Assembly (NCBI RefSeq): GCF_002260525.1
Contig: NZ_MRYI01000016.1
Location: forward strand, 1 to 64,000
DNA length: 64,000 bases
Source of the DNA: Hahella sp. CCB-MM4
GTDB taxonomy: Bacteria > Pseudomonadota > Gammaproteobacteria > Pseudomonadales > Oleiphilaceae
Direction of reading: 5' to 3'
Below, one piece after another: positions 2,426 to 55,574 of this stretch. The position numbers and the translations under genes were made by a program. The notes below the pieces were generated by a model. It was not told the DNA's origin, searched no databases, and saw only the letters and a list, made by a program, of their open reading frames with translations. The stretch's first letter is position 1, and every line of letters begins with the position of its first letter.

Positions 2426-3037
2426 TCAGAATTTTCCGATCCATGTTCTGGTACCCTGCATGATCATGTCGATGGCCACTGTACCAACATAAAGCGCCAT
2501 GATGCGTCCTATGATTTCTATGTATCTCTGAATCAAGGTTTCATGCTTTTTTCGCACATAATCATGCAATGACTTAAGGCCGATCATGATTAAAATTGAG
2601 ATGAACACGGTGGCAAAGATCATTACGGCTGCCGGGATTGCATCGTGTCGTTTTCCGATGATGATGCTCGCGCTAATTGTGCCCGGTCCAATAAGAATGG
2701 GCATGGCGATTGCGCCGACGAGATGCTCTGATTCACCTTGAAGCATCTCAATTGCCGTCGGTCCGCGGAAGACAAACTGCAATCCGATAATGAGAAACAC
2801 AACCCCGCCGAAAATTTGAAATGAGGCAAATTCCGTCTGGAAAACATCGGAGAATATCGCGTCGCCAAAGGCTGTAAAGACCCAGAACACCGCTGTGGCG
2901 ATCAGTCCAGCGCGTATAAGGATTCGTATGAAAAGCCCACGCTCAAGTTTTTGAACGATATTGATCAGGTAAATTATCAATAGGAACGGGTTTAGTAGTA
3001 CGAATAGCAACATAGAAGATCTGATTAAATCGACCAT
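2426..3037 (-). CDS. MarC-family integral membrane protein
   Basis: This 203-residue inner-membrane protein has about six hydrophobic helices. It belongs to the MarC (UPF0056) family, whose function is unsettled; earlier links to multiple antibiotic resistance were not upheld. Diagnostic features are the N-terminal LLNPFLLIIYLINI segment and the conserved MPILIGPGTIS motif around residue 112. Length is typical for the family. It starts with ATG preceded by GGTGAGGAG. It is the only gene with a recognisable family inside the repeat-flanked segment 1372-3085 and may have been carried in with it. Confidence 0.85.
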   Translation of the reverse strand: MVDLIRSSMLLFVLLNPFLLIIYLINIVQKLERGLFIRILIRAGLIATAVFWVFTAFGDAIFSDVFQTEFASFQIFGGVVFLIIGLQFVFRGPTAIEMLQGESEHLVGAIAMPILIGPGTISASIIIGKRHDAIPAAVMIFATVFISILIMIGLKSLHDYVRKKHETLIQRYIEIIGRIMALYVGTVAIDMIMQGTRTWIGKF

Positions 3038-3085
3038 ATCTCCTCACCCGGAAAAGTTAATCCAGCGGCATTTGATTTTCTTCAC

Positions 3086-3288
3086 TTTGCTTTTGGCTGT
3101 GTAGTTTCCCAGCAAACAAACATGTCCACGACTGGAAGGTGGGGAGCAGGCTGCAGCCAACCTATGACAGCAATAAATCTGTCAGTGATCGCTGAGGCTT
3201 ATTCATACCTACAAGCTAATGTCCGCTCCTGACACAAGCGCTCTTGAATACAAATATAGCAGTTCCACCCGTGTCTGCTGCAGGCGAT
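3086..3288. repeat. About 200 bp direct repeat, copy 2
   Basis: This matches 1151-1371 over most of its length: TTTGCTTTTGGCTGTGTAG, CCAACCTATGACAGCAATAAA, GTCCGCTCCTGACACAAGC and AATATAGCAGTTCCACCC are all shared. It lacks the extra TATATTGCTTAGCT stretch of copy 1. It lies between the MarC-family gene and the tetR promoter, in a gene-free stretch (3038-3453). No credible reading frame was seen; it is a non-coding element of unknown class. Confidence 0.85.
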
Positions 3289-3390
3289 CAGCGAGCAATT
3301 GGATACACGGGCGGGGATATGAAAATAGATTGAACCTCATCTTTAACCTTTCCTATCCAGCCAAAAACAGACCCAAATTTAACCAACTCC

Positions 3391-3438
3391 TTGATCCGTT
3401 CAAAATGCCATGTTTATAATGACTGACCGGTCAGTCAT
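3391..3438 (+). promoter_or_regulatory. tetR promoter with overlapping 20 bp operator
   Basis: TTGATC (3391-3396) and TATAAT (3415-3420) are spaced by 18 bp and form a good sigma-70 promoter. A perfect 20 bp palindrome, ATGACTGACCGGTCAGTCAT, spans 3419-3438. It overlaps the last bases of the -10 box and the expected transcription start, 15 bp before the tetR ATG at 3454. This geometry fits autorepression by the TetR protein. Since the downstream genes overlap or nearly abut, the same operator probably controls the whole export operon. Confidence 0.85.
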
Positions 3439-3453
3439 AAAAGGTTTGATTCA

Positions 3454-4089
3454 ATGGCACCCAAAATTGTTGATAAAGATGCCAGGCGTTTGGAGATTAC
3501 TCGTGCTGCTGCGGAGGTGTTTTCTCTGAAGGGATTTCAAGGGGCTTCTGTGGATGATATTGCGGAAGCGGCGGGTGTCAGCAAGGGCTCACTTTATGGG
3601 TACTTCAAGAGTAAAGAGGAGATCTTCTACGCGACTTTTCAGGCCTATCAGGCGGAGTTGGTGCAGGAGTGCATGCAGGCCATGGAGTCGGAGGGGACGG
3701 CGAGTGACAAGCTCACGGCCTTCCTGATGGTGACGGTCACTTCTCTGCACGATCACATCGAAATGTTTCCCTTAACTCTGGAGCTTTGGGCGGCGGCCAG
3801 TTCCGGGCCGGCCAGGGAGCGTTTTGGCTCGGTGATGGAATCCCTCTATAGGGAGTTTCGGGGGATCACCGCAGGCCTGATCGAGTTGGGCAAGGCGATC
3901 GGTGAGTTTCGTGAGGATGTTGAACCGGAGGCTGTGGCCGCCTGGCTTGTGGGGGGATTGGACGGACTGATGCTGCAGTATTGGTTCGATCAGACACTTG
4001 ATGTGCGGCACCTGACGGAAAACTTTCTGGAGATGGTGCTGCGCGGCATTGCTACACGCACTGATCTGGAGGGAATCATTGATGTCTAA
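3454..4089 (+). CDS. TetR/AcrR-family transcriptional regulator
   Basis: This 211-residue repressor has a classical N-terminal TetR helix-turn-helix at about residues 25-60 (VDDIAEAAGVSKGSLYGYF) and an all-helical ligand-binding C-terminal domain. It should bind the 20 bp palindrome immediately upstream and thereby repress itself and the genes that follow. The next gene starts inside its last codons (8-nt overlap: ATG at 4082, stop at 4087-4089), so regulator and exporter are translationally coupled. The inducing ligand cannot be read from sequence; a substrate of the downstream exporter is the natural candidate. Confidence 0.93.
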   Translation: MAPKIVDKDARRLEITRAAAEVFSLKGFQGASVDDIAEAAGVSKGSLYGYFKSKEEIFYATFQAYQAELVQECMQAMESEGTASDKLTAFLMVTVTSLHDHIEMFPLTLELWAAASSGPARERFGSVMESLYREFRGITAGLIELGKAIGEFREDVEPEAVAAWLVGGLDGLMLQYWFDQTLDVRHLTENFLEMVLRGIATRTDLEGIIDV

Positions 4090-4882
4090 ACGGTTGTGGG
4101 GAATGTCGGGAGCAGGGCAACTGGCTATCGGGGTTATCGGGATGTGCCTATGTCATAGCGTATGGGCGGCTCAACCGGACCCAACTCAATTGATCAAGGA
4201 GACCTTCGATAACTGGCGAGGTGAATCTTCTTATACGGAAGTCACCATGACGGTTCATCGTCCGGACTGGGAACGCTCCATGAGCATGTTAGCCCTGACC
4301 CTCGGAGAGGAGGATTCGCTGGTTCGGTTTACCGCGCCGGCGAAGGACGCCGGTAATGCGACGCTCAAGCTGGAAGATGACATGTGGATCTTCAATCCCC
4401 GCCTGAATCAGATTCTCAAACTGCCCGCGAGTATGATGGCGCAGTCCTGGATGGGCTCTGACTTTTCCTATAACGATCTGGCCAAAGCCAATGATGTGCT
4501 GACGGAATACACCCACAAACTGATCAGTCATATTCAGCAGGACGGCCATACCGTGTATGAGGTTGAAGCCATGCCGAAGCCGGATTCTGCGACGGTCTGG
4601 GGAAAGCTGGTCATTCATATCAGGGATGACGGTGTCATGCTGGGAGAGGATTACTACGATCAGGATATGAAGCTGCTGAAACGGATGCAGACAGTGAAAG
4701 TGGATACGCTTGGCGGCCGCCCTTATCCGGTGGCCATGACCATGCAGAAGGCGGATGTTGGTGATGCCTGGACAACAATCGAATATCTGAATGGGCAGTT
4801 CAATATCGACATTCCCCAGTCCATGTTTACAAAATCCAATCTGCGTAACCCACGACCATTTACCCCCAAAGGAGCTGAATGA
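4082..4882 (+). CDS. Outer-membrane lipoprotein-sorting (LolA-like) protein
   Basis: This 266-residue periplasmic protein has an N-terminal signal peptide (cleavage likely after HSVWA, about residue 25). The mature part matches the LolA-like outer membrane lipoprotein-sorting family. Its characteristic core is DDMWIFNPRLNQILKLP followed by SWMGSDFSYNDLAKAND, around residues 115-150. Such proteins have a LolA-type half-barrel that carries a hydrophobic substrate. I chose ATG 4082 because it immediately precedes the signal peptide. It overlaps tetR by 8 nt and the next permease by 4 nt (ATGA). It probably acts as the periplasmic carrier between the FtsX-type permeases and the outer-membrane barrel at 8028-9275. 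Confidence 0.85.
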   Translation: MSKRLWGMSGAGQLAIGVIGMCLCHSVWAAQPDPTQLIKETFDNWRGESSYTEVTMTVHRPDWERSMSMLALTLGEEDSLVRFTAPAKDAGNATLKLEDDMWIFNPRLNQILKLPASMMAQSWMGSDFSYNDLAKANDVLTEYTHKLISHIQQDGHTVYEVEAMPKPDSATVWGKLVIHIRDDGVMLGEDYYDQDMKLLKRMQTVKVDTLGGRPYPVAMTMQKADVGDAWTTIEYLNGQFNIDIPQSMFTKSNLRNPRPFTPKGAE

Positions 4883-44862: not shown

Positions 44863-46026
44863 CTAAACCTCTTCGCACTCCACCTGTTTCGAGTTCATTT
44901 CCACTATCTGTAGCTTGCTGTCAATGATGGCCCATTTATATTCGTCCTCCGAAGTACTCCGGGTCAGTTTCCGGGTCTGTGGATCGATATACTGAGAAAC
45001 GGTGGTAAAACCCAGGGATGCGGTGCCGTCTCGATTGAGGATGTAGGTATGGATCTTAGCAGTGGACTGATATTTTGTTTGGGGTTTCAACATGATTCCC
45101 AAATCAAACTTATAGGTGGTGTAGTTGGCTTCCAGTTCAGTCCGGTTGCCGTCTTCCTGGAAGATAAGGGTGCCGGTCAGTCGGGGGGAAAAGTGTTTGA
45201 GCACACCGTTGATGTCGCAGGTACGATAGGCAACTTCGATGTCCCTGAAAGCTGTCAGTACTTTCTCCCTGGTGACCTGGGTGGCGTCAAAAGCATCTTC
45301 CTGTGGATTTTTCTTGAGCCCGGAAGTTTCCCGGTAGGCGGAAAACAGATGTCCGAAAGCTGACATGGCATCCTCGGCGTCAGAGTTGCCTGTGAGATAG
45401 TCCATCCCATTTCCGGTGACAAATTCCGTTATGTTTTGACTTGCTTTGGACTTTTGTTTTTCCAGCCATAGAAAATAACTGTCGTCGCTGTATTCATGCC
45501 CGAAGCGCTCTGACCTGCCTTCATTCAGCAGGCCCGCCTGCAGGTAGGCAGGCAGTTGTTCATGCCACCAGCGGTAAATGGTGTTGTAGGTCCGCTCGTT
45601 GTCACTTTCTCCAGACAGCTCGTCTTCGCATCTGAGCAGGCGGCCGTTATCGTATTTGTACCAGAACTCCCAGGTGTCATGATCTCCATAACCCCAAGCC
45701 TGGGCCCGGACTCCGGGGCAGAGGTCGTAGAGGAGTTTTACCAGTTTGCCGATCAGGTAATCCCCACAAGAGCTGGTGAGAAACTGACTGATCCAGAAGT
45801 CTTCGTTGCCTAGAGTGGATTCAGCATGAAGGTTCTCCTGATAGCGATTATTCAATTCGTTCAGAAAGTTTTGGGTCTGGATTTCTCCTACCTCGAAATT
45901 CAGCGATTGTGCTGCCAGGAGAATGGATTCGTTCTCCTCGCCAAGGGCTTCAATAAAAGCCTTCAAACGTGAATGGACCGTTGGGTTGGGGTGCTGATAA
46001 TAGAGCTTGCTATGTAGTTCCGCCAT
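44863..46026 (-). CDS. Hypothetical protein with C-terminal NTF2-like domain
   Basis: This 387-residue protein has no signal peptide. Residues 1-220 are alpha-rich with many aromatics and no recognised family. Residues 250-380 look like an NTF2/SnoaL-like cone fold (FRDIEVAYRTCDINGVLKHF, then successive beta strands ending YKWAIIDSKLQIVEMNS). The domain may bind a small hydrophobic ligand or act in polyketide-type or steroid-type chemistry. It lies downstream of the nitrobindin-like gene on the same strand but behind a terminator, so it may have its own promoter. I assign it to the GMC cluster by proximity only. Confidence 0.65.
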   Translation of the reverse strand: MAELHSKLYYQHPNPTVHSRLKAFIEALGEENESILLAAQSLNFEVGEIQTQNFLNELNNRYQENLHAESTLGNEDFWISQFLTSSCGDYLIGKLVKLLYDLCPGVRAQAWGYGDHDTWEFWYKYDNGRLLRCEDELSGESDNERTYNTIYRWWHEQLPAYLQAGLLNEGRSERFGHEYSDDSYFLWLEKQKSKASQNITEFVTGNGMDYLTGNSDAEDAMSAFGHLFSAYRETSGLKKNPQEDAFDATQVTREKVLTAFRDIEVAYRTCDINGVLKHFSPRLTGTLIFQEDGNRTELEANYTTYKFDLGIMLKPQTKYQSTAKIHTYILNRDGTASLGFTTVSQYIDPQTRKLTRSTSEDEYKWAIIDSKLQIVEMNSKQVECEEV

Positions 46027-46180
46027 GTCCTGATCCTTAAGGGTAGCGATATCGATCCGTGTGCTTCCATGTGTGCTGTATGCGGTATATCTACGTCATG
46101 CCTGAGCGTAAGCACGCGAGAGGTTGTTATACCTCTACTCCTTAAAGACTAGTCCAAAACAATCGGAATGGAAAAGAGAA

Positions 46181-46210
46181 ACCGGGAGTCCGTTGGAATG
46201 GTCTCCCGGT
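46181..46210 (-). terminator. Rho-independent terminator of the nitrobindin-like gene
   Basis: ACCGGGAG (46181-46188) and CTCCCGGT (46203-46210) form an 8 bp GC-rich stem. In the minus direction it is followed by TTCTCTTTTCC. It lies 47 bp after the stop of the gene at 46257-47213, consistent with an intrinsic terminator. Confidence 0.7.
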
Positions 46211-46256
46211 GAGCTGACAATGAACAGGACGTTCATTCAATCCCTAAACAGATGCA

Positions 46257-47213
46257 TTAGTTCTTCTTGGTCAAAGTGTTAGAAGTCACATGAGGGAAGG
46301 TGATCACGGTTCCCTTGATTGGAATATCCATCAGAATGGTCTGACTGTATTGCAATTGGGTGTAGTTGGAAGCCCCACCGAAAGATTCCAGCCAGTATCT
46401 TGCGAAATATCTGGAAACTTTGGCGTGTTGCTGTTCAAACCCGATATTGGTGACCGGATGACTGCCGTTGTTTGAATCCACATCAAACTGGATGTAGCTG
46501 CTGGCCGGATACTGTTGGATTGCCTGGGACAATGGCAGGTTGGGGTTTTCCGTAAACGCCGGATTCAGATTGCCGACATTCTTGATTTTGTACTGTTCCG
46601 TGTTGACCCCCATGGGAAGGACCAGGGGAGGGGGTTCGATAATAGGGGTTCCCTGTTTTTCCTCATAAGAGCCGGAAGCCAGAATAGAGTTTCCGTGAGG
46701 GACTGACATCTGTTTGATGATGTTGAATTTCTGGGAAGGAGGTGTGCTGTTAGGAACGGTTTGGCTGCCAATTCCAGGCTGCTCGCCGTTGCCATAGGGG
46801 CCCAGTAATTGTTTGGTGTCGGTCAGGAACAGCCAGGAGCCGTTCTCCGCATGCACCAGTTGGTCCTTGGCAGGGCCGTCTGCAAAGTAAATTCTTTGTT
46901 CGTAGAACAGGGTGTTCGCAACCTGGGTGCCGTATCCTCCCCGGTTGGGAGCTGTTCCGTGAATGGCCGAGAAGGTGATTTCCTCATAGTAGGAGAAATT
47001 CTTGAGGATATAACCATCTTCCTGGGGCAGTGGCATCAAATTATAGGAAAACGGAGACGTTGGTCCACCCTGGTTGCCATTTTGGATGTTCTGGTTGGTC
47101 CAGGTGCCGACAAGAAACTCCAGTGGGCCTAGTGCGGTGGTCGGTTCTGGTGGTTCCGCCTGGGCTGGTTCCTGAAGAAGGGGTTCGCTTAGATTGGGGG
47201 CTGTCGTCGTCAT
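46257..47213 (-). CDS. Nitrobindin-like heme-binding beta-barrel protein
   Basis: This 318-residue protein opens with a low-complexity Pro/Glu-rich segment (about 1-28). The characteristic LGPLEFLVGTWTNQN and long beta strands follow, expected of the nitrobindin/THAP4-type (FABP-like) barrel. The C-terminal part includes the strand NIGFEQQHAKVSRYFARYWL. Heme binding is inferred from fold only; the axial His was not located with certainty. No signal peptide. It is transcribed divergently from the GMC-dehydrogenase operon over a 337 bp region, so a shared regulator is likely. Confidence 0.7.
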   Translation of the reverse strand: MTTTAPNLSEPLLQEPAQAEPPEPTTALGPLEFLVGTWTNQNIQNGNQGGPTSPFSYNLMPLPQEDGYILKNFSYYEEITFSAIHGTAPNRGGYGTQVANTLFYEQRIYFADGPAKDQLVHAENGSWLFLTDTKQLLGPYGNGEQPGIGSQTVPNSTPPSQKFNIIKQMSVPHGNSILASGSYEEKQGTPIIEPPPLVLPMGVNTEQYKIKNVGNLNPAFTENPNLPLSQAIQQYPASSYIQFDVDSNNGSHPVTNIGFEQQHAKVSRYFARYWLESFGGASNYTQLQYSQTILMDIPIKGTVITFPHVTSNTLTKKN

Positions 47214-47434
47214 AATGAGTCCCTTTATGTGCTGTTGATCCCGTGCTCTATCAGCTCCCTTTCAGCTATCTGATAGAGTCCCAAAATGAATATAGTCGAA
47301 ATCAGAGGGTGTGGTTAAAAATTAACCTTTTTAAAGTTTAAGCTGAGTGACAAGAAGTAAAATAATTACATTATTGTTTGAATAATAAGAATTTTTCTTT
47401 AGATGAAACGGGATGACACTTTTTGGGATGATTT

Positions 47435-47463
47435 TCTTGAATGGTTAAAAAATGGTCTATACT
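47435..47463 (+). promoter_or_regulatory. Candidate promoter of the GMC dehydrogenase cluster
   Basis: TCTTGA (47435-47440) and TATACT (47458-47463) are separated by 17 bp and lie 88 bp upstream of the small-subunit start codon. The region between the two divergent genes (47214-47550) is AT-rich, with TTACATTATTGTTTGAATAAT at 47367-47386. The -35 box is weak, so activation by a regulator is possible. Confidence 0.45.
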
Positions 47464-47550
47464 AGGCCTCAGTAAGCGACGTAGTTTCGTTCGTTTAGCA
47501 ATTTCCACAGGCACGTGGCGAGTGGAAAACAAAGCGTAGGGAGACATTTC

Positions 47551-48048
47551 ATGGACTGGTTAGACGAATTCTATCACCTAAGTTCTGCCCTGACTGACTA
47601 CAAGGTTGTACAACTCAAGGGAACAGGAGTTGGTGAAGAATACCTCGACGTATTAAGCACAATCATCCCCCAAGACATCTTATCCGAACTCTTCGATTGT
47701 TATCGAAGCCTGAAGGTTCAAAACTCCTCCAAACCAAAAGAACAACTGATTCGGGACGCCATTCTATGTGACGCGAAACTGGGCCCGGTGGCGAGAAACA
47801 TCATCAAAATGTGGTACCTGTCTATCTGGTATCAGATGCCCGATGACTGGCGTCAACAATTCGGTAAACCCAACCAGGGATCGCCCAAATATCAGGATGT
47901 CCAGTTTGTGGTATCCCGCAATGCCTATATTCAGGGATTGGTTTGGGAGGCTCTTGGTTCACATCCAATGGGAGCCAAGCAACCTGGTTATGGTACCTGG
48001 TCGGATAAACCGACAGACAAGGGCTCCGTGATCAGTACCGCATCCTGA
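47551..48048 (+). CDS. FAD-SLDH-type small subunit of a GMC dehydrogenase
   Basis: This 165-residue protein resembles the small (gamma) subunit family of membrane-bound FAD-dependent sorbitol/gluconate/glucose dehydrogenases. It has a helical N-terminal half (MDWLDEFYHLSSALTDYKVV), LLSTI/IPQD-type helices and the C-terminal IIKMWYLSIWYQMP...YIQGLVWEALGSHP pattern. ATG 47551 follows TAGGGAGAC; a GTG upstream is less likely. Unlike typical members it has no Tat signal peptide. It precedes the large subunit and probably assists folding or FAD insertion. Its 3' end is duplicated by a 20 bp tandem repeat that includes the stop codon. Confidence 0.75.
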   Translation: MDWLDEFYHLSSALTDYKVVQLKGTGVGEEYLDVLSTIIPQDILSELFDCYRSLKVQNSSKPKEQLIRDAILCDAKLGPVARNIIKMWYLSIWYQMPDDWRQQFGKPNQGSPKYQDVQFVVSRNAYIQGLVWEALGSHPMGAKQPGYGTWSDKPTDKGSVISTAS

Positions 48049-48081
48049 TGGCTCGAACTGTATCCTGATGGCACGAACTGA
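48042..48081. repeat. 20 bp tandem duplication across a stop codon
   Basis: ATCCTGATGGCTCGAACTGT (48042-48061) and ATCCTGATGGCACGAACTGA (48062-48081) are adjacent copies. The first contains the stop codon of the small-subunit gene (TGA, 48046-48048). A third diverged GGTACGAATT follows. The array ends 94 bp before the GMC start codon. Confidence 0.85.
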
Positions 48082-48175
48082 AGGTACGAATTAAAGAAAC
48101 ACCGGATCAGAAGTACTAAAAAATACAAGCAAGCAACACCCCACGATAAGAATACATACACATATGGAGGTGGAC

Positions 48176-50017
48176 ATGAATACTGTTGATGAGTTTGATG
48201 TTGTCATAGTGGGAGCGGGAATCAGCGGCGCTATCATGGCTGAGCAGCTTGGCGCTAAAGGTAAACGAGTGCTGGTGCTGGAAGCCGGCAGTGGAACCGG
48301 CGACCGTTTCTGGAGTAGTGGAGGGGCGAACAGCAAGCGGGACGGTTACGAATCCTATATGGACACTTTTTTCACGGCCCTCGCCAAAATACCCAATGCT
48401 CCCTATCCCGATAATCCCAATGCCCCTCAGCCGCTGGTGACGGATCTGGAACCCATTACCCCCAACCAGCCTTTAACCAATGGATATTTTGTCCAGAAAG
48501 GTCCCTTGCCGTTTGCCAGCACCTACACCCGCGCAGAGGGGGGAACAACCCTGCATTGGCTTGGTACCTGTCTGAGGATGCTTCCGGAGGACTTCCATAT
48601 CAAAACGGAATTCGGCCGGGGCCTGGATTGGCCCATCAACTATCACGACCTGGAAAAATGGTATCAGGTTGCTGAGAAAAATATCGGTGTTTCCGCCAAC
48701 GCGGACGAACAAAATTATCATCAGATTGACAATCCATCCGTCCAGATTCCTTATCAGGATGGTTACGACTATCCGATGGAAAAGATCCCCCAAAGCTATC
48801 TGGACAGGCACATGGCCAAAGGTCTCCAGGGGATGACCGTAAACTTTGACGGTAAAACCTATCCGATTGATGTGGTCAGTACGCCACAGGGACGTAATGG
48901 GATGCCGAGGGGGTCTTATCGTCCTGTGGGCGCTGTGGGTGATCCTGATTTGGGACAACGTTGTGCGGGCAATTCCAACTGCGTTCCCATTTGTCCGATT
49001 CAAGCCAAGTACAATGCTCTGAAGACTCTGATGCAGGCACAGAAAACGCATCATGTGGAAATACGCACCCAATGTGTGGCCTATGATCTGGAAGTCGACC
49101 CGGTTACCAACCATATTTCCAAAGTTCACTACAAGCAGTATTCCGACCCCAATTCTTCTGATCATGTATGCAAAGCTGTGAGAGGCAAAGTGGTTGTACT
49201 TGCTGCCCACGCGGTGGAAAACGCGAAACTGATGCTGGCTTCCGGTGTCGGCAACTCCAGTGATCAAGTCGGACGTAATCTGATGGATCACCCGACCATG
49301 CTGACCTGGGGATTAATGCCGTCTCCCATCGGTGCCTTCAGAGGGCCGGGTTCGACCTCGGGAATTCCCTCATTGCGAGGGGGAGATTTCCGTAAGAACC
49401 GGGCGGCATTTCGCATTGAAATAGGTAACTGGGGATGGTCCTGGCCGGAGGGAGCGCCCATCGGCACGGTGCCGGACCTGATCGACCAGAAAAATCTGTT
49501 CGGTAAGCAATTGAAGGACACGATTGCTTCCGTGTATCCCAGAATGTTCCGTTTTGGCTTTCTGGTGGAACAGTTACCGGATCCGAATAATCGGGTCACC
49601 ATTGATCCCAACTATCGTGATCAGTTGGGGAATTACCGTCCGGTCATTGACTATGATGTCAGCGATTACTCGCGGGCAGGCATGGCTGCGGCCAAGCATG
49701 TGTCAGACATGATCTTCCAACGCCTGGGGGTAGAAGGTTATACCGAATACAATCCGTCTGATCCCGGCTATGTCACATATCAGGGCCAGGGGTACACCTA
49801 TAACGGGGCCGGCCATCTGGTGGGGACTCACATTATGGGGGCTGACAGCAAAACGTCGGTGGTTAACAGAGAGCAGCGTAGCTGGGACCATCCCAATCTG
49901 TATCTGGTCGGGTGTGGCAACATGCCAACGATCTCCACCTCCAATCCAACCCTGACCATGGCGGCTTTGACATATTGGGCGGCAGACAATGTGTACAAAG
50001 CACTTGCGGATATGTGA
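48176..50017 (+). CDS. GMC-type FAD dehydrogenase large subunit
   Basis: This 613-residue GMC-family flavoprotein shows the Rossmann motif FDVVIVGAGISGAIMAEQLG at the N-terminus. The cysteine motif C-X5-C-X3-C (CAGNSNCVPICPIQAKY, about 265) resembles the Fe-S site of FAD glucose/sorbitol dehydrogenases. The C-terminal active-site His lies in GHLVGTHIMG, followed by TSNPTLTMAA. ATG 48176 is preceded by GGAGGT; ATG 48164 is in frame but has no ribosome site. It oxidises an alcohol or sugar. Normal relatives pass electrons to a multihaem cytochrome c, which is absent here, and no export signal is present. Confidence 0.85.
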   Translation: MNTVDEFDVVIVGAGISGAIMAEQLGAKGKRVLVLEAGSGTGDRFWSSGGANSKRDGYESYMDTFFTALAKIPNAPYPDNPNAPQPLVTDLEPITPNQPLTNGYFVQKGPLPFASTYTRAEGGTTLHWLGTCLRMLPEDFHIKTEFGRGLDWPINYHDLEKWYQVAEKNIGVSANADEQNYHQIDNPSVQIPYQDGYDYPMEKIPQSYLDRHMAKGLQGMTVNFDGKTYPIDVVSTPQGRNGMPRGSYRPVGAVGDPDLGQRCAGNSNCVPICPIQAKYNALKTLMQAQKTHHVEIRTQCVAYDLEVDPVTNHISKVHYKQYSDPNSSDHVCKAVRGKVVVLAAHAVENAKLMLASGVGNSSDQVGRNLMDHPTMLTWGLMPSPIGAFRGPGSTSGIPSLRGGDFRKNRAAFRIEIGNWGWSWPEGAPIGTVPDLIDQKNLFGKQLKDTIASVYPRMFRFGFLVEQLPDPNNRVTIDPNYRDQLGNYRPVIDYDVSDYSRAGMAAAKHVSDMIFQRLGVEGYTEYNPSDPGYVTYQGQGYTYNGAGHLVGTHIMGADSKTSVVNREQRSWDHPNLYLVGCGNMPTISTSNPTLTMAALTYWAADNVYKALADM

Positions 50018-50032
50018 CCAAGGAGACGGATT

Positions 50033-51136
50033 ATGTATATCAATGAAGAATGCAAGCCTATCAAAGTCGCCAACAACAAGTTGACCCCAATCACCACGGT
50101 TCAGGAGCTGCACCATAACCTGCAATTGGCCATCGAACTTGAATTTGCCACTTTGCCGACTTATCTGAGTGCGTTGTACACGATCAAGGAAAATACCAAC
50201 GTTTGTGCCTATAACGTTATCCGCAGTGTGGTGATGGAGGAAATGTTTCACCTGACCAATGCGGCCAATGTCCTGATCGCCACCGGTGGAAAGCCGGCCT
50301 TGAACAATCCCGAGTTTATTCCTTCATTTCCCACCAAACTGCCGGACAAAGAAGAATGGTTTACGGTGAACCTGAGAAAGTTTTCACCTGAAGCGCTGGC
50401 TACCTTCAAATATATTGAGGAGCCGGCCGAACTGGCTCATGGCCTGATTACCATCGGCGAGTTTTATGAAAATATCATTCACGGACTGGTACACCTGAAC
50501 AGTGATTCTTGTGTGGATTTGTTCCCTTCCGGTACTTGCCCTCAGATAGAGCATAAATATTACTATGGCGGTGGCGGTATCATCTCGAAGGTGACCGACC
50601 TGGATTCCGCCACGTTTGCTTTGAATGCCATTGTGGTACAAGGCGAAGGGATGCCGACATCTGATTGGGACCCTGACAAACCTTTGCCTCTGGAGGAGAT
50701 GACCGGAATCTGGAGCGGTGATCATCCACTCTTCATGCAACCCCGGGAGCTGGCTCATTACTATCGGTTTGATGAACTGGCCAAAGGGCGTCGATATATC
50801 TGTGGTGATACTCATAACTCCGGCCCCACCGGCCCTGAAATCCCCATTGATTACAGTGCTGTGTATAACATGATTACGAATCCCTGCAGCAAGGATTATG
50901 AAAACTTCTCCGAACTGCGCGAATTGAATCATGAATTCAATCGGATATTTACCGAACTGCTGAATCAGTTGCATCAGGCATTTAACGGTAAACCGGAAAC
51001 ACTTGAACCGGCAGTGGGCACGATGTTCCGGTTGAAATACGCTGCCCAGGAACTGATGCGTAATCCTATTCCTGATTCGCCTCAGGAGTTTTACGCCGGG
51101 CCGACCTGGGAATACATTTCTGCTTCGGGGTGGTGA
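50033..51136 (+). CDS. Ferritin-like protein of the VioB/RebD (imine-dimer synthase) type
   Basis: This 367-residue protein carries the ferritin-like domain found in VioB/RebD and related proteins. Helix 1 has NLQLAIELEFATLPTYLSAL (about 30-49), and the second metal helix has VVMEEMFHLTNAANVLIAT (about 65-84), giving the expected E-E-H metal ligand pattern. The rest (about 90-360) is a mixed region including a third Glu/His helix. In violacein and rebeccamycin synthesis such domains support oxidative dimerisation of amino acid imines; here only the fold can be claimed. It starts 15 bp after the GMC stop, with AAGGAGACG, in the same operon. Confidence 0.8.
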   Translation: MYINEECKPIKVANNKLTPITTVQELHHNLQLAIELEFATLPTYLSALYTIKENTNVCAYNVIRSVVMEEMFHLTNAANVLIATGGKPALNNPEFIPSFPTKLPDKEEWFTVNLRKFSPEALATFKYIEEPAELAHGLITIGEFYENIIHGLVHLNSDSCVDLFPSGTCPQIEHKYYYGGGGIISKVTDLDSATFALNAIVVQGEGMPTSDWDPDKPLPLEEMTGIWSGDHPLFMQPRELAHYYRFDELAKGRRYICGDTHNSGPTGPEIPIDYSAVYNMITNPCSKDYENFSELRELNHEFNRIFTELLNQLHQAFNGKPETLEPAVGTMFRLKYAAQELMRNPIPDSPQEFYAGPTWEYISASGW

Positions 51137-51209
51137 TCCGGCACTACCCCATCAGGATCTGTTGAGGTTTCATCTGAACACGTAGGCCATACGTGAAAAG
51201 GGAGGTCCT

Positions 51210-53171
51210 ATGGAAGGTCGGGTATTTGATCATGTGCTGATCATTATGTTTGAAAATGAATATCGTGGTTACGTCATGGAAAATGAATACATGCGTAACC
51301 TCGCTGCCCAGGGTATTGAACTGACCAACTGCTTTGGGGTCATGCACCCCTCGCAGACCAACTACATTACTTCCATTGCCGGTGAACTCTGTAATGTGAG
51401 TGATGATGACAGACCTCAACCCCTGCCTCAGAAAACCATTGTCGACCTGATCGAGGCTTCGCCGCAAAACCTTCGCTGGAAGGCGTACATGGACAGCTAC
51501 GTCCCTGATGACACCCCCTGGGTTCCGCAGGGATTTACGCCCCGGGACCACTATCCCTATGTTATCAAGCACAATCCGTTTTCTTCCTTCAAGAATATTC
51601 TTGAAGATCATGAGAGATGGGAAAAAATTGATAATGAGGCTGGTTTCTGGCGTGACCTGCTCAACCATGACTTGCCGGAGTATGCCTGGTTTACACCTAA
51701 TATGTGGAATGACGGGCATTATCTTGTCGGCACTCTGAATGACAGTTTACACGGCGAACGGGCACCTGTGCTGGTTGACCAGCAGGCGAAGTGGCTGCAG
51801 TCATTTTTCGAAGGCCTTAATTTCCCCGGGCCCCGCAGCAAATTACCGCCGAGAACCCTGGTGGTGGTGACCTATGATGAGGCCGACTTCGAAGCTTTTT
51901 ACGATAAGGGTAAAAAGTACACTTATGATGGTCCCAACCAGATTTATACCGTTCTGCTCGGAGACATGATTGCACCGGGACAGCAAGGTGAAGGTTATAA
52001 CCATTACAGCCTGCTGAGAACCATCGAGAAAAACTTCAATCTGGGAGACCTGCAGAAGAACGACAGGGATGCCAACTGGTATCAGTTTCTGTGGGGAAAA
52101 TCATTCCAGTGGCAGCGGCCCAGGGAAACGCCGATGAAGTGCAAACAGAACCTGAGTGCTGCGTCCTACGCCGGAGAGCTGTATGTCGTCAGCGCCGATA
52201 TTGAAGGAACACTGAGGTACTGTATTTTTGATGGACATGAATGGTCTCCTGAGGTCACGGTAGCGGAGGACGGTGATGGATACCTGCATCTGGCCGCCAA
52301 TGGTGAGAAGCTGGTGCTGGCCTATCGTGATTCGCAGAAGCATCTGGCCGTGAAGCTCTATGATCTGGAGCAGGGATGGCGTTTAGCCGAAATTCCGGAT
52401 GTTGGAGAGGTGGAAGAGATCTCTCTGGTGGCAATACCCCATCAACCCGCCTTTATGCTGGTGTACAGAGACTGCGGAAATCAACTGCGTAGTCTCATCT
52501 ACACGGGCAGCCAATGGCAAGGTCCGTCCGACGCCATCTGTACCCATAGTGACGGATCGTTCACGCTGGCGGCTCTCGGGGCTTCGATCCTGTTGATTTA
52601 TCGGGTCATCAAGACCGGGCAGCTGTCCTGTTTGAGTTATAACACCGGTGAATTCAATAAAGTCACGGTGGAGAACAGTCAGTATGCCGGTCCTTATGAC
52701 GACACAACAGTCAATCAATGGTCCGCCAGTGCATTTTCCCTGAATCACTATAGTGAAGCGCCGAATCCCATTACTCCCCTGGAAGATGAACCTGTCAGCG
52801 AGGGAATCAGGGCATCCGGTGAACTGGCCTCGGTGACACTCGACGGGGTCATATATCTTATGCATAACCGGTTTTCGGATGGAGCCGGTAATGGTCAACT
52901 TCTCTATGAAACGTTCTCTATCAGCGGCACATTAACGCCTGCTAATCCTGTCTCTTATAACCCTGCGGAAAATGATACGACCAGCAACGGATATGGAACT
53001 CTGGCAGAAGCCGGCTGGAGTTTGACCGGTGCTGTCAGTGGCGTTTTCCGCAATTCCGACACGCCGCTGGCTGCGGCGAATCTGAACGGCACGCTCTGGC
53101 TTCTATATCAACCCCTGACAAACGAGCGTATCTGGGCATGCCCCGGCGCTTACCTGAAAAACAAGGAGTAA
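51210..53171 (+). CDS. PLC/AcpA-type phosphoesterase with C-terminal beta-propeller-like domain
   Basis: This 653-residue protein starts directly in the alkaline-phosphatase-superfamily fold (FDHVLIIMFENEYRGYVMEN), with further motifs CFGVMHPSQTNYITSIAG (the Thr/Ser nucleophile region) and LVVVTYDEADFEAFYD. No signal peptide precedes them. Residues about 310-640 form repeated blades (AASYAGELYVVSADIEGTLR, HLAANGEKLVLAYRDSQKHL), resembling a beta-propeller or sialidase-like carbohydrate-binding domain. Substrate is presumably a phosphomonoester or phospholipid. GGGAGGT precedes the ATG. It belongs to the GMC operon. Confidence 0.8.
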   Translation: MEGRVFDHVLIIMFENEYRGYVMENEYMRNLAAQGIELTNCFGVMHPSQTNYITSIAGELCNVSDDDRPQPLPQKTIVDLIEASPQNLRWKAYMDSYVPDDTPWVPQGFTPRDHYPYVIKHNPFSSFKNILEDHERWEKIDNEAGFWRDLLNHDLPEYAWFTPNMWNDGHYLVGTLNDSLHGERAPVLVDQQAKWLQSFFEGLNFPGPRSKLPPRTLVVVTYDEADFEAFYDKGKKYTYDGPNQIYTVLLGDMIAPGQQGEGYNHYSLLRTIEKNFNLGDLQKNDRDANWYQFLWGKSFQWQRPRETPMKCKQNLSAASYAGELYVVSADIEGTLRYCIFDGHEWSPEVTVAEDGDGYLHLAANGEKLVLAYRDSQKHLAVKLYDLEQGWRLAEIPDVGEVEEISLVAIPHQPAFMLVYRDCGNQLRSLIYTGSQWQGPSDAICTHSDGSFTLAALGASILLIYRVIKTGQLSCLSYNTGEFNKVTVENSQYAGPYDDTTVNQWSASAFSLNHYSEAPNPITPLEDEPVSEGIRASGELASVTLDGVIYLMHNRFSDGAGNGQLLYETFSISGTLTPANPVSYNPAENDTTSNGYGTLAEAGWSLTGAVSGVFRNSDTPLAAANLNGTLWLLYQPLTNERIWACPGAYLKNKE

Positions 53172-53175
53172 GAGG

Positions 53176-54660
53176 ATGACTTCTGAAAACAATATGCTGG
53201 ATCAAGTGGATCATATCGTCGTAGTGATGCTGGAAAATCGCTCCTTCGATCATATGTTGGGATTTTTATATGCGGATCAAAACAACGTTTCTCCGCTGGG
53301 ACATCCCTATGAAGGACTGACTGGGGAGGAATCCAACCCGGATGGCAAGGGATACAATGTGAAAGTATTCAAGATCCCTTCCGACCAACATCCGTACTAT
53401 TGGCCGGGTACTGATCCGGGGGAAGGTTACTACAACACCAATAGTCAGCTGTTCGGCTATTACAAGACACCTAAAGCCGGAACTGAGGCGACTAATCAGG
53501 GCTTTATCACTGATTTTGCCTATACCCTGGGGTGGCAGCGCCGAGATAACGAGAAAAAGCCCAACAGTTGGCCCATTGTGGAGGGAACCGAACCCGGCGA
53601 TATTATGGGGATGTACACCCCGGAACTGCTTCCTGTGTTGTCCGGACTGGCCAAGTCCTATGCCGTTTGTGATCACTGGTATTGCTCTGTACCCACGGAG
53701 ACGTTGCCAAACCGGGCTTTTGTGCACATGGCCACAAGCCTTGGACGGCTGAATGATCATGACAAGAAATACAATGCCACTACCATTTTCAATTTGCTGG
53801 AGGACGCGAAGCAGCCCTGGAGTATCTATGGGTATGAGGATGATCCGATATTGACCCGTGAATCACTGCAGGCGTTACCGGCTAATCCGGTGTACGGTAC
53901 TTTTGGCAATTTTGATGCCTTCAAGCAAGCTGCCAGTAGTGGCAAGCTGGCGAGCTATTCTTTCCTGACTCCTGAATGGGGCTCCAAAGGCAACAGTCAG
54001 CACCCCAATTATGATGTGGCAAAAGGCGAGCAGTACCTCTATGACATATACCAGGCACTGAGAAACTCGCCGCTTTGGAGCAAGACGCTGTTGATCATTA
54101 CCTATGATGAACATGGCGGAACCTATGATCATGTGGCACCGCCGGAAAATGCTGCCCAGCCGGCGGACTGTCCTGATAATGAGGGTTTCAACTTCCAGCG
54201 CTTCGGTGTCAGGGTGCCAACGGTGCTGGTGTCTCCACTGATCGAAGCCGGAACGGTTTTCCGGGTTCCGGAGCCGGATAAGGATCTGACTGGGAATTCC
54301 CCATCGACTACCCCGTTTGATCATACGTCGATTCTTGCCACAGTGGAGAAGCGGTTCGGCCTGTCCAGTCTGACGACGCGTGATGCGGCTGCCCCGGATA
54401 TTGGTCCCGTGCTGACACTGAAGTCTCCACGGAACGATTATCCGTTGGAGGGAGTCAATCCTCCGAAGAGTGAAGCCACCCCGCCATCCGAAGGTAGCGG
54501 CGGTTGGAATAAGGCCGATCATTTGCAGAATGCTGAAGCAGAATTGACATCACAGCTCAGTCTGGAGGGAGATTACCACTCCCGTTATGATCAGAATTAT
54601 GAAAACCAGGACGAGGCCAAGAAGTATTCCCGGGATCGCTATCACCGTTATTACGATTGA
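53176..54660 (+). CDS. PLC/AcpA-type phosphoesterase (phospholipase C family)
   Basis: This 494-residue protein of the bacterial phospholipase C/AcpA family has HIVVVMLENRSFDHMLGFLY at residues 13-32, CSVPTETLPNRAFVHMATS around 170 and the metal-binding TLLIITYDEHGGTYDHV around 305. All metal and nucleophile motifs appear intact. Relatives are usually Tat-exported, but this one lacks any signal peptide. A 50-residue tail (EAELTSQLSLEGDYHSRYDQ) is unusual. It follows its paralogue by 4 nt with AGTAAGAGG as ribosome site and ends the cluster. Confidence 0.9.
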   Translation: MTSENNMLDQVDHIVVVMLENRSFDHMLGFLYADQNNVSPLGHPYEGLTGEESNPDGKGYNVKVFKIPSDQHPYYWPGTDPGEGYYNTNSQLFGYYKTPKAGTEATNQGFITDFAYTLGWQRRDNEKKPNSWPIVEGTEPGDIMGMYTPELLPVLSGLAKSYAVCDHWYCSVPTETLPNRAFVHMATSLGRLNDHDKKYNATTIFNLLEDAKQPWSIYGYEDDPILTRESLQALPANPVYGTFGNFDAFKQAASSGKLASYSFLTPEWGSKGNSQHPNYDVAKGEQYLYDIYQALRNSPLWSKTLLIITYDEHGGTYDHVAPPENAAQPADCPDNEGFNFQRFGVRVPTVLVSPLIEAGTVFRVPEPDKDLTGNSPSTTPFDHTSILATVEKRFGLSSLTTRDAAAPDIGPVLTLKSPRNDYPLEGVNPPKSEATPPSEGSGGWNKADHLQNAEAELTSQLSLEGDYHSRYDQNYENQDEAKKYSRDRYHRYYD

Positions 54661-54746
54661 TCGTCGATATCCTGAATAATTTGCGGTTGTGGTATCCATA
54701 AATCCGTACCAAACTTAGTCATCTCGAATGATATAGGGGAGTGTTT

Positions 54747-55574
54747 GTGCGGATTTATGGGGTCTCTGTTCAGTGCCGTCTGTTGACAGGGATTTTGATC
54801 CTTTGTTCATTCCTCGGACGGAGTCATACAGCTGAAGCATACGATGGATACTTGAGTATCGGCGGTACCGAAGACTCGCTGCTTCGGTATGTCGACTCTG
54901 CTGGTGAAATCCAGGGTATGGATGTGGATATCTTTCGCGAAATAATGCGAAGGATGAACTTCGACTTTACTGTGCACCTGTTCAAATCGACCGCCCGTCT
55001 GGAGAGAAGCTGGCAGGATGGACGCTATGATATGGTGTTCAGTCATTCCTATAATCCGGAGCGGGCCAAGTACCTCCTGTATCCGAAGCAGTCACACCTG
55101 TTTCTGGAGTGGCACTTTTTCATGCGCAAGGAGAATAAAGGACGATTCCAGTATGACACCCTGGAGGATTTGAAGGGATTGCGCATCGGCGTCACCAAAA
55201 GTTTTTCCTACACCTCAGAGTTTTGGAAGAGGGGACGGGAAGGGTGGTATAGCCTTGATGAAGTCACGGTGAATAAGTTGAATCTCAATAAGCTTTTACT
55301 GGGAAGGATCGACTTGTGGCCGAATGGCACTTTGGGAACGTTGTATCGGGCCAGAACGGAGGGATACGCAGATCAGATTGATTACCTTCCCAAACCTCTG
55401 AAATCCGGATACTACTTTAATACTTTTGTGCGTCGCTCTCCCCGGGATGATATTCCGGCCCTGGCAGAGAAATACGACCGAGCCCTGAGTGACATGAAAA
55501 AGGATGGCTCCCTTGCGGCGATCTATCTCCGTTACGGGTTTGAGCTTAACCCTGAGTTGCTGGAAGCCCTTTAG
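54747..55574 (+). CDS. Solitary SBP_bac_3 periplasmic binding protein 4
   Basis: This 275-residue exported protein starts with GTG at 54747 (VRIYGVSVQCRLLTGILILC), correctly spaced after AGGGGA; the upstream GTG at 54741 is too close. The signal peptide ends near HTAEA. The binding domain includes LRYVDSAGEIQGMDVDIFRE and the family-3 pattern of ligand-binding strands. It has no transport partners and is transcribed after the phosphoesterase gene, 86 bp away. It is paralogous with the three proteins at 38.8-41.3 kb. Confidence 0.82.
   Translation: MRIYGVSVQCRLLTGILILCSFLGRSHTAEAYDGYLSIGGTEDSLLRYVDSAGEIQGMDVDIFREIMRRMNFDFTVHLFKSTARLERSWQDGRYDMVFSHSYNPERAKYLLYPKQSHLFLEWHFFMRKENKGRFQYDTLEDLKGLRIGVTKSFSYTSEFWKRGREGWYSLDEVTVNKLNLNKLLLGRIDLWPNGTLGTLYRARTEGYADQIDYLPKPLKSGYYFNTFVRRSPRDDIPALAEKYDRALSDMKKDGSLAAIYLRYGFELNPELLEAL

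Follow-up and report, generated by a model that had tools for sequence, protein, structure and literature searches.

The window analysed here, a stretch of 64,000 nucleotides of contig NZ_MRYI01000016.1 from Hahella sp. CCB-MM4 (6.66-Mb draft genome), carries an operon in which a small subunit, a GMC dehydrogenase and a PF12902 ferritin-like protein are encoded in succession, followed by two phosphoesterases. Comparison of this trio with its relatives gives good support to the view that the ferritin-like gene stands where a gene for a cytochrome-type protein usually is. The trio is tentatively read, at somewhat less than an even chance, as a cytosolic polyol or sugar dehydrogenase with flavin adenine dinucleotide (FAD) and a 3Fe-4S cluster, in which the ferritin-like protein would serve as electron acceptor and a heme protein would handle peroxide. 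No description of such a GMC/small subunit and PF12902 ferritin-like set was found among titles and abstract starts of the open-access papers searched, an absence that is no proof; the literature basis also includes PMC9727119 and PMC8348568.

The genes lie on the forward strand in the order small subunit (47551..48048), GMC dehydrogenase (48164..50017), ferritin-like protein (50033..51136) and the PF04185 phosphoesterases PE1 (51210..53171) and PE2 (53176..54660), separated by 115, 15, 73 and 4 bases, and the gene of an FMP-type heme-binding barrel (46257..47213, reverse strand) is divergent from them. The operon proposed in the initial annotation is real, as all its genes are open at these coordinates, and its first three genes recur together across phyla. 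Among the sequences collected, Hahella ganghwensis stands closest (ferritin-like protein, 89%).

The window GMC protein carries the GMC_oxred_N/C domains, and a profile of 10 GMC proteins compared with the PDB matched FAD-glucose dehydrogenase (GDH; 6a2u_B, E 8.5e-81) and fructose dehydrogenase (FDH; E ~2e-67), which bears out its assignment to the family of FAD-GDH/FDH catalytic subunits. In Burkholderia GDH (BcGDH), as described in PMC6719666, C212, C218 and C222 are the 3Fe-4S cysteines, FAD is joined to H105, and H476 and N519 are the likely catalytic pair. The equivalent residues, hand-placed from alignments, are C267, C273, C277, H131, H551 and N594 of the window protein. The triad C-x5-C-x3-C and the FAD-linking His are kept in 22/22 ferritin-linked rows and the His/Asn pair in all 21 complete ones; the window enzyme thus keeps the cysteines of a predicted 3Fe-4S cluster together with its catalytic residues. 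Since these cysteines are retained, the dehydrogenase probably sends electrons out via the cluster.

The FAD-GDH/FDH/SLDH heterotrimers (Burkholderia cepacia GDH, 6a2u/8grj; FDH, 7w2j) share with the trio an FAD-type GMC protein that has the 3Fe-4S cysteines and the His/Asn pair, and a neighbouring small subunit of apparently the same family. They differ from it in their tri-heme cytochrome, whose place is taken in the trio by the ferritin-like gene, and in the Tat (twin-arginine) signal of their small subunit. In the window, no reading frame with a CxxCH motif occurs within 6 kb of the ferritin-like gene, in agreement with the earlier remark that the usual cytochrome partner is missing. No three-CxxCH protein was found within 6 kb in the 21 trio loci, and 20 of them are also devoid of a one-CxxCH protein within 6 kb of available sequence; two further CxxCH matches (L006, L068) were set aside because the reading frames that hold them are short and lie within the GMC gene.

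GMC relatives lacking a nearby ferritin-like gene were of three kinds. Five (L080, L082-L085) have a Tat-type small subunit and a nearby three-CxxCH protein; in four (L086-L089), where the small subunit is likewise of Tat type, no CxxCH protein was found in the available, partly short sequence; and in five (L029, L030, L031, L077, L081) a small subunit without Tat signal directly follows a one-CxxCH protein. The one-CxxCH partners constitute one family (38-61% mutual identity, n=5) of 456-494 residues whose N-terminus looks signal-like by eye; the four scanned matched no Pfam family, and that of Azospirillum ramasamyi is annotated as cytochrome C. These systems, whose GMC proteins are the nearest outside the ferritin-linked clade (~40-44% identity to the window), resemble the trio in their Tat-less small subunit, but their partner is the one-CxxCH protein rather than a ferritin-like one.

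In a GMC tree of 35 rows, with groups assigned by the author from the kinds of neighbour gene, the 19 ferritin-linked rows form one clade (100/99; one change, a value as low in 0/500 shuffles), nearest to which are the one-CxxCH rows (79/62 as a group) and then the tri-heme rows. Left out were the partial and frameshifted L064, the near-copies L008 and L010, and L068, whose GMC gene is in pieces. Rooting was at the midpoint, which makes the direction of the swap an inference. The single clade upholds the idea that the ferritin-like protein stands in for a cytochrome-type partner.

The docking surface of the complex also appears altered. Cys213 of BcGDH forms a disulfide with the small subunit, although such cysteines are not generally conserved according to PMC6719666; the position is Cys in 5/5 tri-heme rows, 0/22 ferritin-linked rows and 0/5 one-CxxCH rows, and its loss fits a cytosolic complex. 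In BcGDH, the C-terminal segment of the small subunit lids the 3Fe-4S region and touches the cytochrome (PMC6719666). The corresponding lid of the window protein, HPMGAKQPGYGTW, follows the pattern HPxGA[KR] present in 20/21 trio loci. The exception is L067 (NPSGAK), missed by the pattern search, where the translation NPSGAKGPGYGSW keeps GA[KR] and has lost the His. In the one-CxxCH systems the lid reads H[PA]MG without subsequent A[KR] (5/5). Judged from its position, the lid difference may be specific to the partner and affect the face at which it docks.

The small subunit itself (gamma, 'hitchhiker'-type, FAD-GDH/SLDH-like) matched nothing above cut-off in the single-sequence Pfam search, and FAD-SLDH (PF12318) gave weak matches, below the Pfam cut-off, in 3/10 alignment members (best E 0.02, window 0.11). 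Profile comparison gave links both to small subunits of Tat type (E 5.7e-6, probability 85%) and to those of the one-CxxCH systems (E 7.8e-19), of which the L077 protein passes PF12318 narrowly (24.4 vs 24.2). The membrane-type small subunit of the initial annotation is thereby made probable. A PDB search with its profile returned 0 matches, its structure model (pLDDT 61) had no fold match at E up to 0.001, and a PF12318 search of 114 class genomes gave no match with the controls silent too, and is uninformative about absence.

The open reading frame of the small subunit spans 47515-48048, and ATG 47551 is its best start by conservation with H. ganghwensis, where the preceding Shine-Dalgarno-like GGGAG is also kept (by eye). 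The resulting N-terminus, MDWLDEFYHL, has neither an RR motif nor a hydrophobic stretch, whereas RR is present in 9/9 Tat-type control rows. A simple scan of seven proteins detected no hydrophobic or twin-arginine N-terminus, its single peak, in the GMC protein, being the Rossmann strand; the reported lack of evident signal peptides thus holds.

The ferritin-like protein satisfies PF12902 (169.4 bits, above cut-off) and has a ferritin-like fold; VIA-align placed 3hl1 first, followed by ferritin, bacterioferritin and Dps chains, a ranking that does not exclude unlisted families. A diiron-type set of six ligands (E37, E70xxH73, E205, E239xxH242) is complete in 19/19 trio rows with one E to D change, the near-copies L008 and L010 being omitted, and this pattern points to a putative dimetal site.

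The PF12902 domain is best known from violacein and rebeccamycin enzymes and is part of VioB, RebD and StaD. The ferritin-like protein might therefore be an enzyme that processes the dehydrogenase product by the logic of VioA/VioB, with heme, so that the operon would make a metabolite; this explanation is considered rather unlikely. It is in keeping with the weak match to the VioB model TIGR04492, with VioB-like fusion and split forms seen by eye in L047 and L048, and with the pairing of PF12902 proteins also with LodA/LodB-like genes and a second GMC type. In VioA/VioB, RebO/RebD and StaO/StaD, too, a flavin oxidoreductase is paired with a PF12902-domain protein, and VioB/RebD/StaD are heme oxidases dimerising an oxidase product, according to PMC10847564. 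However, the TIGR04492 score is 15.5 bits against a cut-off of 1250, and the protein has 367 residues as compared to 1003 model positions. Only the PF12902 domain of the earlier 'VioB/RebD-type' label therefore stands. VioB has ~1000 residues with another N-terminal half, which the operon does not encode, and those pairs have no small subunit and carry out amino acid chemistry. The GMC protein keeps 3Fe-4S cysteines that a plain product-feeding oxidase would not need, and the helix D Glu of the trio (one Asp) is Thr, Asp and Leu in L047, L048 and L074, respectively.

The small subunit, GMC and ferritin-like genes occur together in the window and 20 collected loci of gamma-, beta- and alphaproteobacteria and Bacteroidota, amid varying neighbours. 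In all, 54 loci were scanned with a single query set, most of them collected via the ferritin-like or small gene and hence a non-random sample, and BLAST located the ferritin-like gene in 51. Within 5 kb of it, GMC and small genes were present in 20 loci, LodA in 14 (LodB too in 13), a second GMC type in 3, a lone GMC fragment in 1 and no query in 13. The trio loci are not independent, five being Pseudoalteromonas of the window's branch. Two gene orders were observed: the window, L003-L012, L068 and L076 read small-GMC-ferritin, and L054-L056, L064, L066, L067, L075 and L078 read GMC-ferritin-small. A GMC-seeded search of 299 genomes gave 16 places in 15 genomes; all 5 places above 540 bits had a ferritin-like gene near, as compared to 0/11 below 450 bits in the available sequence, where one genome has a PF12902 gene on a different contig. 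Since the trio recurs across phyla, its association is more than chance, and a chance neighbourhood is ruled out by recurrence in many genera. The initial annotation had regarded a lack of co-occurrence as decisive against it; the three genes co-occur in many genomes, and this objection therefore falls away.

The module is nevertheless rare and patchy, as evident from the few matches of the small-subunit profile: 4/369 class genomes (three of them of the one-CxxCH type), 2/58 relatives and 2/7 genomes in the genus. Among plasmids, 105 records reach E <=1e-8 against the small subunit (78 Rhizobium, 17 Sinorhizobium), the intact trio not being present in all.

Oxidation or storage of iron is common among ferritin-like folds. 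The ferritin-like protein and the FMP protein could accordingly be protective or maturation factors that supply a 3Fe-4S flavoenzyme with iron or rid it of peroxide while remaining outside turnover. Both families accompany several unrelated oxidoreductases, as this explanation would have it; it is improbable, since the ferritin-GMC pairing is clade-wide and no ferritin-like gene lies near the GMC relatives that share these cysteines (0/14 loci, some contigs being short).

In the favoured reading, the trio would be a three-protein cytosolic dehydrogenase derived from the periplasmic FAD-GDH/FDH/SLDH complexes. The small subunit may scaffold the catalytic subunit, the ferritin-like protein may dock in the former cytochrome position, and electrons would pass from a polyol- or sugar-like substrate to FAD, the 3Fe-4S cluster, the dimetal site and finally O2, with the FMP heme protein, where present, dealing with peroxide. 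As no cytochrome is encoded alongside and the ferritin-like protein is ever-present, the latter is the first candidate acceptor. The fuller version, in which a ferritin-like dimetal protein has replaced the GDH cytochrome and created a soluble cytosolic complex that uses cyclitol or sugar electrons for O2 reduction or activation, a new self-fuelled oxidase/oxygenase, is possible but doubtful.

Several observations weigh against the cytosolic dehydrogenase. Cys213 is missing from the five one-CxxCH rows as well, so that its loss does not prove a cytosolic complex. In the trio locus L006, a protein with one CxxCH, distantly related (23-27%) to the one-CxxCH partner family, is encoded on the opposite strand and adjoins a LodA-like gene. 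The tree program flags two ferritin-linked branches as long (the first copy of L075, and L076) and warns that long branches meet between the tri-heme rows and the rest. PF12902 genes also stand beside LodA-type genes, whose enzymes use O2 directly, and the FMP gene was not found in 3/11 loci of the window's branch, which speaks equally against a protective role.

The 46257..47213 product, earlier described as a divergent nitrobindin-like barrel, falls just under the THAP4/nitrobindin cut-off (24.5 vs 25); the heme_bind_FMP model NF040572 fits better (235.4 vs 150), and the peroxidase_FMP equivalog does not apply (67.5 vs 300). The gene is the sole copy in the source genome and is divergent in the window but co-directional downstream in Pseudoalteromonas. 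Its presence in 8 of the 11 loci that make up the window's branch (the window plus L003-L012) and, above cut-off, in one Agrobacterium trio locus outside it (L075) makes the heme barrel the likely fourth partner of the trio.

The two phosphoesterases of phospholipase C type had been proposed as members of the module. Both fall in PF04185 and lie in the operon (PE1, 66.4 bits over residues ~24-278, with a long C-terminal extension without family; PE2, 221.8 bits, phospholipase C/acid phosphatase-like), and the source genome has only one further PF04185 gene, three in total. They are lineage-specific accessories and not core: PE1 occurs in 10 and PE2 in 7 of the 21 trio loci, all within the 11 of the window's branch, where contig L005 ends ~1 kb after PE2. 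PE2 scored 113 against 580 bits for the phosphatidylcholine-specific phospholipase C equivalog TIGR03396 and thus falls outside it. The earlier interpretation is, overall, partly supported.

Other trios have other company. Rhizobial L054, L055, L064 and L078 and P. xiamenensis L067 carry GH15, IolE, sugar isomerase/epimerase, metallo-hydrolase and thiamine pyrophosphate enzyme genes; Agrobacterium L075 has the first three, the last two not being found in its available stretch. In Persicobacter (Bacteroidota) an IolE homologue lies ~6 kb from the trio, and no queried accessory was found in L009, L056 (short contig), L068 and L076. In both operons tested, the myo-inosose-2 dehydratase model accepts IolE; elsewhere in the source genome there are homologues of IolE (40% and 27% identity). 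From these gene sets it follows that the module is plugged into carbohydrate/cyclitol metabolism in one branch and sits beside phosphoesterases in the other. A common logic is plausible in which a hydrolase would free a polyol and the trio would oxidise it. More speculatively, the phosphoesterases of the Hahella/Pseudoalteromonas branch might release the substrate by cleaving a phospho(di)ester, and in the rhizobial branch, where IolE follows, GH15 might release it from a glycoside.

This catabolic setting of the rhizobial trios, beside IolE and sugar isomerases, argues against the view that the proteins, exported without signal peptide, act extracellularly or within a target cell as an oxidase/phospholipase weapon similar to the LodA-type antimicrobials. 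Such a role is very improbable, although the phospholipase C family of both phosphoesterases, the long extension of PE1 and the membership of LodA-like neighbours of PF12902 genes elsewhere in an antimicrobial family (PMC4417212) would be in line with it. Among the annotated neighbours in five trio records (L064, L067, L075, L076, L078; other loci not searched), no injection-system gene is named, though an HlyD-type gene lies ~6 kb away in L067.

GDH/FDH-type complexes serve in direct-electron-transfer biosensors, and the described ones covered here pass electrons to heme c. A cytochrome-free, apparently cytosolic branch with a ferritin-like partner would offer a new electron-exit route and a soluble enzyme scaffold. 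If the dimetal O2-reducing complex is real, PF12902 would serve flavin and quinone enzymes in general as a family of redox partners. The trio thus provides a handle on PF12902 function and a lead for 'ferritin-like' and 'hypothetical' genes on rhizobial plasmids.

Upstream of the operon, a promoter-like block (47437..47463, forward strand; TTGAAT-15-TATACT) is kept, by eye, as TTGA(A/C)T-15-TATACT across the window and H. ganghwensis inside a less conserved intergenic region. The consensus promoter scan, which demands a spacer of 16-18, does not flag it, and the promoter/terminator scan was no better than shuffles. The 387-residue protein at 44863..46026 (reverse strand) has no Pfam or NCBIfam support for its earlier NTF2-like label; it occurs in the window and H. 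ganghwensis only, of the 21 trio loci, and probably lies outside the module. Conservation of the genes left of 46257 beside the operon does not extend outside Hahella. A solute-binding protein gene of SBP3 type (54741-55574, same strand, hydrophobic N-terminus) is not counted in the module because it is absent from that place in H. ganghwensis and beyond.

PF12902 genes in other surroundings were also noted. Their proximity to fungal lodA has been mentioned earlier (PMC4417212). LodA/LodB (GoxA/GoxB) loci resemble the trio in having PF12902 beside an oxidoreductase, and in 5/14 loci FMP heme genes too, but with a tryptophylquinone oxidase and flavin maturase in place of the GMC/small pair. In the source genome, a second PF12902 gene (L033, contig C129, 5183-9410) adjoins LodA-like and LodB-like genes that score below the LodA/LodB equivalog cut-offs. 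In L006 (1-3204, a gammaproteobacterial metagenome-assembled genome), the LodA-like gene and the one-CxxCH relative lie side by side ~4-5.5 kb from the ferritin-like gene of the trio. L051, L052 and L061 have PF12902 genes of ~655-742 codons beside a DUF692 (metal oxidase)- and DUF2063-like pair (by eye only). On a Mycetohabitans endofungorum plasmid (L074, 5896-14770), a ferritin-like gene and a 675-residue hypothetical protein are annotated upstream of an EboE/UbiA/EboA-type cluster. PF12902 is paired with the different GMC type in L057, L071 and L072; the Cys pattern is C-x5-C-x2-C in L057 and L072, which also encode a 156-residue protein without family, followed by an endonuclease/phosphatase-family (L057) or annotated phospholipase D-like (L072) gene.

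Variation within the trio was likewise recorded. On several rhizobial and Bradyrhizobium plasmids (L064, L065, L071 and plasmid matches H113-H118), the ferritin-like gene has stayed open but breaks or shortening affect the GMC or the small gene. Agrobacterium larrymoorei L075 has a second small and GMC pair beside the trio (2567-4785), its second small gene ending in the lid HASGAN, and in L056 two GMC copies surround a single ferritin-like and small gene; the paralogues of L075 and L056 may share one partner.

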